Assembly (NCBI GenBank): GCA_949915775.1
Contig: CATLEG010000004.1
Location: forward strand, 1 to 48,869
DNA length: 48,869 nucleotides
Reading direction: 5' to 3'
Source of the DNA: an uncultured Candidatus Melainabacteria bacterium
GTDB taxonomy: Bacteria; Cyanobacteriota; Vampirovibrionia; Gastranaerophilales; Gastranaerophilaceae
In this document: positions 24,975 to 27,382 of the stretch, piece by piece
Numbering within the stretch: position 1 is the first letter of the stretch
Layout: each line of letters opens with the position of its first letter
Position numbers and translations under genes: made by a program
The notes under the pieces: model-generated
Database searches by the model: none
What the model was told of the DNA's origin: nothing
What the model saw: only the letters and a program-made list of their open reading frames with translations

Positions 24975-25003
24975 TATGTCATTCTAAGTGGAACGAAGAA
25001 TCT
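24975..25003. repeat. Partial copy of the tgtcattctgag...gaagaatc repeat
   Basis: tatgtcattctaagtggaacgaagaatct, similar to murE insert 2. Confidence 0.65.
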
Positions 25004-26887
25004 TTAACTCTTCATCCTGTGCTTGTTTCAATTGTTTCTGATTGCGAGATACTTCGGCTAAAGCCTCAGTATGACGTTTTATTTGTTCGGTTAAGGCTGT
25101 TATCTTTGCATCAAGTTCTTTTACCGCATTTATCAAGGCATAGAACATGTCTTCTTTGCGGATTGTTAAAAAGCCGTCAGAGCCCTTTTTCACAGCATTT
25201 GGAAAAACTTTTTGCAAATCCTGTGCGATTACACCGACATGCGGAACTTTTTTGTCGTCCTTTTTGTATGTATAATTAAAAACTTTTAACTGACGAATTT
25301 TATCTAAACCGGAAGTAGATTCTGTACCGACGTATTTCAAGCGGCGGTCGGACATAATCATATCACCATTACCATCTGTTACCATTTGATTATCTGAATC
25401 AATCAATGGGCCTTTCAGATATAATGCACCGGTAATCTCTACATTGCCCTCAATAACCAACACATTGCTAGAATCATAAGGTTTTATTTGATTTGGAACT
25501 ATAGCTGTAGTATCTTTATCACCCAGATAAAGTAACTTGCTGTTATCTGTTGCTTCTGTACTACCTTTTACTGGGCCGGAATAATTGCCAATACAAGTTT
25601 TGTTAGATCCGGTTACCCATTGGCATGAATAAAAACCTAATGCTGTATTATTGTTACCAGTTGTATGACCAACTAAGTGATCTCCTTCATCTTTAAATAA
25701 AGCATATGCGCCAATCGCTGTATTATAGCTGCCTGTGGTATTTCCCATTAGTGCACCATGACCAAGTGCAACATTATCGTTTCCTGTTGTATTCTGATTC
25801 AAAGAATATGAACCAACTGCTGCATTTTCATAACCTGCTGTATTTTCAGACATTGAAACAAAACCTACAGCAGTATTACTAGCTGTATTTTTTCTCAATG
25901 CAGAAGTTCCTATAGCTACAGAAGAATATGCTCCATTACTTAATTCCATAGCTTGCGAACCTACTACTGTATTATGACTTCCTGCATTAGCTGCTTTTTG
26001 CATAGCTGAAGCACCAACTACAGTATTTGAATAACCTTTTGTAGATTCAGACATTACCCTATCACCTATAGCCAAATTAAAATCACTATTTTTTGATGCA
26101 TCGTAAACTTTCGTATTGAGTTGTTTCATCGCAAAATAACCTATGGCAATATTATGAGAACCTGCATTATTATTACCGGCAGAATCACCTATAGCAATAT
26201 TATCTGAGCTTTGAATTTGACTTCCTGCATTGCTGCCAATAGAAATACCACGATCACTGCCTGATTTTGCATTATTACCAATTACAACAGAATATTCACC
26301 ATAGTTTACAGGATTTCCTGCACTGGAAATAGCTCCTAAGGTTGCACCAGAACCAATAACAACTCCATTTGGACGTGTTGCTTTAGCATTCGTACCTATA
26401 ATTACTCCATTTGATGAACTCGGATTTATGCCTCTCCCCAAAGCGATTGTATTTGAACCTATTGTTGAAATATCTTCAACAAAAGAACCTAACATCATAC
26501 CATTTGATCCTAAATACATATCAGCAGTTTTTGTTCCATTCAATTTGAAAGAAATTGCCGGTGTTGAGGTATTTGGAGTATTTATTATCAATTTACCGGA
26601 ATCGGTAGCGGCTTTTGTTGACTGACCTAACATTGCTGATTGGGTATTGTTTACCCCAAAATAAGCATCAATACTATCTAAGCCTGCCCAGCGCCATGGT
26701 GATGATTGACTGTTATCTGAACGCATTTTGGTCGTCATTACTGGAGCCATTGCAGCTAAAATTATACTCATTATCAAGAGTACAACCATCATTTCTGCTA
26801 ACGTAAAGGCATTATATCGGCCTATAATAAAAGGATTTCGTAATGTACGAAAAATTTGGCCTAATTGGGTAATTAATTGCGGTTCAG

Positions 26888-26896
26888 CCCCCCCCC
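26888..26896. repeat. Homopolymeric C9 (G9 on minus) tract near the 5' end of the prepilin-like gene
   Basis: ttcag ccccccccc gaccggg; the longest G/C homopolymer I noticed in this AT-rich window. Confidence 0.9.
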
Positions 26897-27004
26897 GACC
26901 GGGTCAGAAGACGCTTACTGAGCCATTTTTCACATCTTTTCATTCAACAACTCCTCTATTCATTCTATACTAATTATATATTATTATTAACATTTTTTCA
27001 AGCT

Positions 27005-27382
27005 TTATGTTAATAAGTTTAATAATGAAGAGCCGAAGAGCAAAATTCCAATTATTATTGCAGTTACTGATGCAAACATAACAGCACCGGCAGATATATC
27101 TTTCGCCATTCCAACCAATTTTGAATACCGATTATGAAATACAGCATCTAGTGAAAATTCTATTGCAGAATTTAACATTTCAGTAACTATGACAAATGCG
27201 ATTGTTAAAAGTAATATACACATTTTTTCTATCGAAAAATTAAGTAAAAACGCAAATGCGATAACAATCATAGCAATACATATATGCACTCTAATATTTA
27301 TTTCTGATTTCAGAACGATACGCATACCCTTACGAGCATTTTTAAATGTATTTGAAAAACCTTGCTGTTTAAATTTTGACAT
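27005..27382 (-). CDS. dgkA: Diacylglycerol/undecaprenol kinase
   Basis: SEINIRVHICIAMIVIAFAF...VIVTEMLNSAIEFSLDAV...AKDISAGAVMFASV. Confidence 0.93.
   Translation of the reverse strand: MSKFKQQGFSNTFKNARKGMRIVLKSEINIRVHICIAMIVIAFAFLLNFSIEKMCILLLTIAFVIVTEMLNSAIEFSLDAVFHNRYSKLVGMAKDISAGAVMFASVTAIIIGILLFGSSLLNLLT

Follow-up and report, generated by a model that had tools for sequence, protein, structure and literature searches.

A poly-G tract in the leader of a prepilin-like gene, a candidate phase-variation switch with a genus-wide distribution in gut Gastranaerophilales

Introduction

Phase variation by poly-G tracts is characteristic of pathogens of mucosal surfaces, among them Neisseria, Campylobacter and Helicobacter, and PilC of Neisseria is an example of a phase-variable pilus gene. 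To our knowledge, few pilus genes of Neisseria are phase-variable and no large prepilin family with leader tracts exists there. Poly-G switching is classical in Neisseria (PMC5953494) and in Campylobacter (PMC6321876), where 5–81 genes per strain are phase-variable. It has also been shown for the sortase pili of a gut commensal, Bifidobacterium breve, in which mixed tract lengths were measured and the in-frame length was enriched in mice (PMC9187656). That system is the closest measured precedent for the locus described here, with G10 in 93% and G9 in 6.5% of cells (PMC9187656). A first-pass annotation of our sequence had assumed such switching to be unfamiliar in gut bacteria; the Bifidobacterium pili contradict this.

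The present locus resembles the B. breve sortase-dependent pilus in that a gut commensal carries an intragenic G-tract near the start of a pilus gene (G10–G12 in B. breve) and that the annotated state is OFF (PMC9187656). However, B. breve has one or two clusters per genome encoding Gram-positive sortase pili, whereas in the present case the tract lies in the predicted cleavable leader of single prepilin genes, which number in the dozens and belong to the type IV pilin superfamily. The Campylobacter phasomes are similar in another respect, with many poly-G/C tracts in a small AT-rich genome, a peak at 9–10 and a genus-wide occurrence; they involve diverse genes, and the ON share in one set was near the prediction for drift (PMC6321876). 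In contrast, the tracts described here belong mostly to one protein superfamily and 87% of them are ON at 8/11/14. With Neisseria they would share poly-G slipped-strand switching of pilus-related genes (PMC5953494). Our literature search found no report of phase variation for the Melainabacteria/Gastranaerophilales lineage and nothing on slipped-strand mispairing in the leader peptide of prepilins. The lineage, the scale, the placement in the leader and the uniform setting one base short of ON appear to be new.

Results

The window analysed here is a contig of 48,869 nucleotides from the genome of an uncultured Candidatus Gastranaerophilales bacterium (2.04 Mb, 143 contigs, 98% complete). The minus strand at the locus reads aatagaggagttgttgaATGaaaagatgtgaaaaatggctcagtaagcgtcttctgacccggtcGGGGGGGGGcTGAacc. 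Inspection of this sequence identified an ATG (26943-26941) preceded at a distance of 7 nt by the Shine–Dalgarno-like gaggag (26956-26951), a G9 tract (26888..26896) that starts 47 nt past the ATG, and an in-frame TGA directly behind the tract. A homopolymer in the size range of contingency tracts (7–9 or more) thus lies inside the 5′ coding region. With nine Gs, the consensus of a metagenome assembly like all tract lengths in this study, the product is the OFF-state peptide MKRCEKWLSKRLLTRSGGG (26884..26943, minus strand), which ends after 19 codons at the TGA. Ten Gs give 23 codons, whereas eight give a frame of 652 codons. Eleven Gs open the same frame as eight, a length on which the first-pass annotation was silent. 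One tract length in three therefore opens the full frame and the others truncate it, in the window gene as in the 133 tracts that we classified. The start, the gaggag, the tract and the stop had all been placed correctly by that annotation, which was also right that eight Gs join the two frames into a single ORF, that the upstream extension of the body frame lacks a good start before it meets a TGA, that a prepilin-type N-terminus is encoded in frame upstream of the listed ORF and that the current state is OFF.

In the long frame, the remainder of the prepilin leader, from the tract to the FTLAE motif (26811..26887, minus strand), is free of start codons. The N-terminus that follows, AFTLAEMMVVLLIMSIILAAMA (26739..26810, minus strand), matches N_methyl (PF07963) above the cut-off (E=1.4e-5) and shows the leader, the cleavage site of the form [G/A/S]-F-T-L-x-E and the hydrophobic helix of the type IV prepilin superfamily. 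The surface-protein body (24984..26810, minus strand) has repeats that weakly resemble the YadA head at about 26226-26300 and, C-terminally, the chaperone domain Peptidase_S74 (about 25188-25352, E=2.5e-16). Together, the PF07963 and Peptidase_S74 matches confirm the predicted product as a prepilin-like surface protein. Cleavage of the leader would be expected from membership of the prepilin family; pilA-D, and hence pilD, and pilT have been reported in a Gastranaerophilales genome (PMC5877343). The upstream neighbour (27005..27382, minus strand) is a prokaryotic diacylglycerol kinase gene by its Pfam match (PF01219). In four congeners the diacylglycerol kinase gene is likewise followed by a prepilin gene that bears a tract, although the body of that gene is different. 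A gene with an OLD-like TOPRIM domain (PF20469, 23713-24663 of the window), possibly involved in phage defence, also adjoins the surface-protein gene.

A paralogue of the window gene on contig C5 of the same genome shares 93.7% identity with it starting shortly before the FTLAE motif, and its leader of 20 residues is tract-free and not homologous to the window leader (26811..26887). When leaders at least 65% alike were paired in three genomes, the bodies behind them were less than 35% alike in 50 of 59 pairs. Taken together, the shared leaders before unrelated bodies, the C5 paralogue and the body swap at the diacylglycerol kinase locus indicate that the tract-bearing leader behaves as an exchangeable module, the boundary of which would lie at or near the predicted cleavage site. 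From start to motif, leaders in the window's genome reach 281 residues, with a median of 107 compared with 44 in congeners. They (e.g. L040, L058, L037 and L074) are in part made up of dispersed repeats such as gtcatcctgagcaaagcgaagga, which are kept open in the long frame. These repeats seem to break the assembly, so that many contigs end there.

The window's genome contains 61 G/C runs of 9 or more, against 0.2–0.7 expected for its size and GC content (32%), an enrichment far beyond chance. Runs of 8 and 7 occur only once and twice respectively, and this bimodal length distribution is unlike that of chance runs. Among 24 congeners, 21 have between 11 and 151 runs of 9 or more (the other three have 0, 1 and 4), compared with 0–7 in each of 15 genomes from other genera of the order; most of the genomes are fragmented, with many contigs ending in leader repeats, and the counts per genome are lower bounds. 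In the window's genome, read around its tracts and prepilin genes, and in two well-assembled congeners, nearly every tract lies 15–120 nt past an ATG, and at nearly every tract one of the three lengths opens 130–650 codons, mostly of prepilin-like genes. Prepilin-like genes have 84 matches in the window's genome. In most of its tract-bearing prepilin genes the sequence from tract to FTLAE is stop-free in the long frame, with many stops in the other two. Non-prepilin tract genes also occur, for instance an acyltransferase in a congener. Three tract genes of the window's genome (L048, L061 and L090, with G13, G10 and G12) lie outside the prepilins and match no Pfam family; they indicate that switching may reach past pilin-like proteins.

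In congeners and in named metagenome-assembled genomes (MAGs), some homologues of the window gene carry leader tracts of G9–G11, in both ON and OFF phase, and others have tract-free leaders. Length thus differs among homologues, that is, between paralogues and between species rather than within one strain. Paralogues with similar flanks and different lengths were also found (G9/G10, G9/G10 and G16/G14). The first-pass annotation had suggested looking for further 5′ G-tract genes in the same genome, where most of the 61 runs are at prepilin-like starts, and following tract length in relatives. Viral contigs were scanned for the tract contexts with the aim of finding same-species copies of other lengths, and gave no match. 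A MAG labelled Heliobacteriaceae (Gx481_bin9) encodes prepilins with FTLAEMMIVLL and tracts of G11–G16 and C23 (L168, L181, L187, L197 and L226), longer than those of the window's genus; the label looks wrong.

The lengths and frames of the tracts are regular. Of 133 classifiable tracts, 116 are ON only at 8/11/14, 15 at 10/13 and two at 9/12. The majority class comprises 87% of tracts and 44 of 50 leader clusters (p about 1e-15); paralogues are not independent, and counting by leader cluster reduces this non-independence without removing it. The rule holds in all three codon phases and for poly-Gly and poly-Pro sense alike. The commonest length is 10, found in 90 of 115 tracts from the three genomes and the loci linked to the diacylglycerol kinase gene, and these need exactly one more base. 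Since ON requires 8, 11 or 14, the consensus shows most genes OFF and a single base away from ON; consensus-ON genes numbered 3/32, 0/31 and 5/42 in the three genomes. A stop codon follows within 15 nt of the tract in the 10-phase in 95 of 108 cases, compared with 14 of 108 in the 9-phase. Genes of the S74 type from named MAGs deviate, with a larger share open at 10. The near-constant length of 10 and the rarity of ON at 9/12 (2/133) are more regular than unbiased slippage with neutral frames would predict, a point against the switching model, and we know of no such regularity of ON lengths at classical contingency loci. The window gene is no special case, as nearly all tract genes are OFF and ON at 8/11.

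The G-runs of adjacent tracts lie on the same rather than on different DNA strands in ratios of 15:2, 43:4 and 69:2. In the congeners G045 and G007, C-sense genes share the G-run strand with their neighbours. The G-run therefore remains on one DNA strand for long distances along a contig, and genes on the opposite strand carry C-runs. That the run follows the DNA strand and not the direction of the gene suggests slippage in replication over recoding of the mRNA, since a process tied to replication should give such constancy, and slippage by the ribosome or RNA polymerase should not. Local GC skew, taken as a marker of the replication strand, agreed in G-sense genes (positive in 61 of 66 in G045 and G007); among C-sense genes it was a weak guide (7 of 11), and the strand argument therefore rests on the concordance of neighbours. 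In the same two genomes the G-run changes strand no more than once or twice within a large contig, as if at a replication origin or terminus, and its strand could be used as a replichore marker. MutS1 and MutL normally reduce one-base slippage, and their presence counts against the switching model. Both were found throughout the genus and in nearly all relatives, with tracts or without, and loss of mismatch repair was rejected as the cause of the tracts.

The alternative of recoding, in which at 10 Gs or Cs the ribosome shifts by −1 or RNA polymerase adds one base, would yield a fraction of full-length protein without a change in the DNA. It would account for the need of exactly one more base at 90 of 115 tracts and for the 10-phase stop close behind the tract, a layout similar to that at recoding sites. 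However, tracts of 9 (the window gene included) and of 7 in the window's genome would need another shift and would be dead; indeed, tracts of 7, 9, 10, 12 and 13 that share one ON class need different shifts instead of one fixed shift at a conserved slippery site. Stimulatory RNA structure is common, though not universal, in programmed frameshifting, and no such structure was detected in the 50 nt after the tract, where the mean fold z was near 0. The same layout is found with poly-C and in all codon phases, and the run follows the DNA strand rather than mRNA sense. A run of seven would already be long enough for a slippery site, but runs of 7–8 are almost absent, and transcriptional slippage typically takes place at A/T runs (PMC3711429). 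Recoding is less likely than switching at the level of the DNA, and we consider it improbable.

A sequencing or assembly indel would mean that the real tract has 8 or 11 Gs and that the gene is intact. Homopolymers are error-prone and Illumina reads have trouble at G-tracts (PMC9187656), but the same layout recurs in many independently assembled genomes, including assemblies of five and eight contigs, and tracts of 11–16 were assembled as well. An error would need to drop one base at more than 100 loci, and even if the count at the window gene were wrong, the tract would still exist and resemble the others in kind. The window gene could also be a plain pseudogene with the tract as a relic, as it is OFF and the tract-free paralogue on C5 looks intact; against this, the body of 600 codons shows no other damage, the joined frame runs open through the leader, and congener homologues retain tracts at the same position in ON and OFF phase. 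In view of the 61 tracts, the congener tracts behind ATGs and the ON and OFF homologues, it is very unlikely that assembly error or plain pseudogene explains the pattern in general, and for the window gene itself we give each little credence. Finally, translation from an internal start or promoter past the tract, with the tract and short frame a mere upstream element, can practically be dismissed: TATAAT-like and ATG triplets do precede the motif in many congener leaders, but between tract and FTLAE the window gene lacks any start codon, as do several congener genes, and 44 of 50 leader clusters match the frame that runs through the tract.

Discussion

We suggest, with a probability of about three in four, that the G9 tract acts as an ON/OFF switch by slipped-strand mispairing in a cleavable prepilin leader and belongs to a genus-wide set of such switches that are rarely ON. 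The proposal builds on the anatomy of the locus, the enrichment of tracts, the regularity of frame and strand, the distribution in the genus and the tract-free paralogue. DNA replication would add or remove Gs in the leader tract, and its length would thereby change in living populations. Only with 8, 11, 14 and so on would translation that begins at the true ATG run on into the body of the prepilin, and the assembly has the OFF length of 9 at the window gene. The ON frame would then be translated, cleaved and displayed. Because the leader would be cut off by prepilin peptidase, the length of the tract would leave the mature protein unaltered and set only whether it is made. With dozens of tract-bearing prepilin genes across the genus and a commonest length of 10, one short of ON, most tract genes would be OFF in most cells and each cell would express a small, changing subset. 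This suggests that each cell switches on a few surface proteins out of a large set, and the one-short setting may have been selected for rare expression.

The contingency locus claimed by the first-pass annotation is thus strongly supported by comparison, through 61 tracts in its own genome, dozens in most congeners and homologues in both states. A more specific model seems to us evenly poised between right and wrong: that the genus controls dozens of prepilin-like proteins by leader cassettes, each with a ten-base G/C run one base short of ON, oriented with the replication strand and recombined near the cleavage boundary, so that most proteins are silent and a few are shown stochastically per cell.

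There is a practical consequence for annotation, as gene callers mis-start or miss many tract-bearing genes. The fixed one-short setting also makes it testable whether the phase of the frame relative to the mutational equilibrium is itself selected and so sets the ON frequency of a contingency gene. If the proposed switching is real, up to about 150 tracts, genus-wide and concentrated on prepilin leaders, would rank with the largest known repertoires of phase-variable genes, hosted by non-photosynthetic relatives of cyanobacteria, and the surface display of these gut bacteria would be poorly predicted by a consensus genome.
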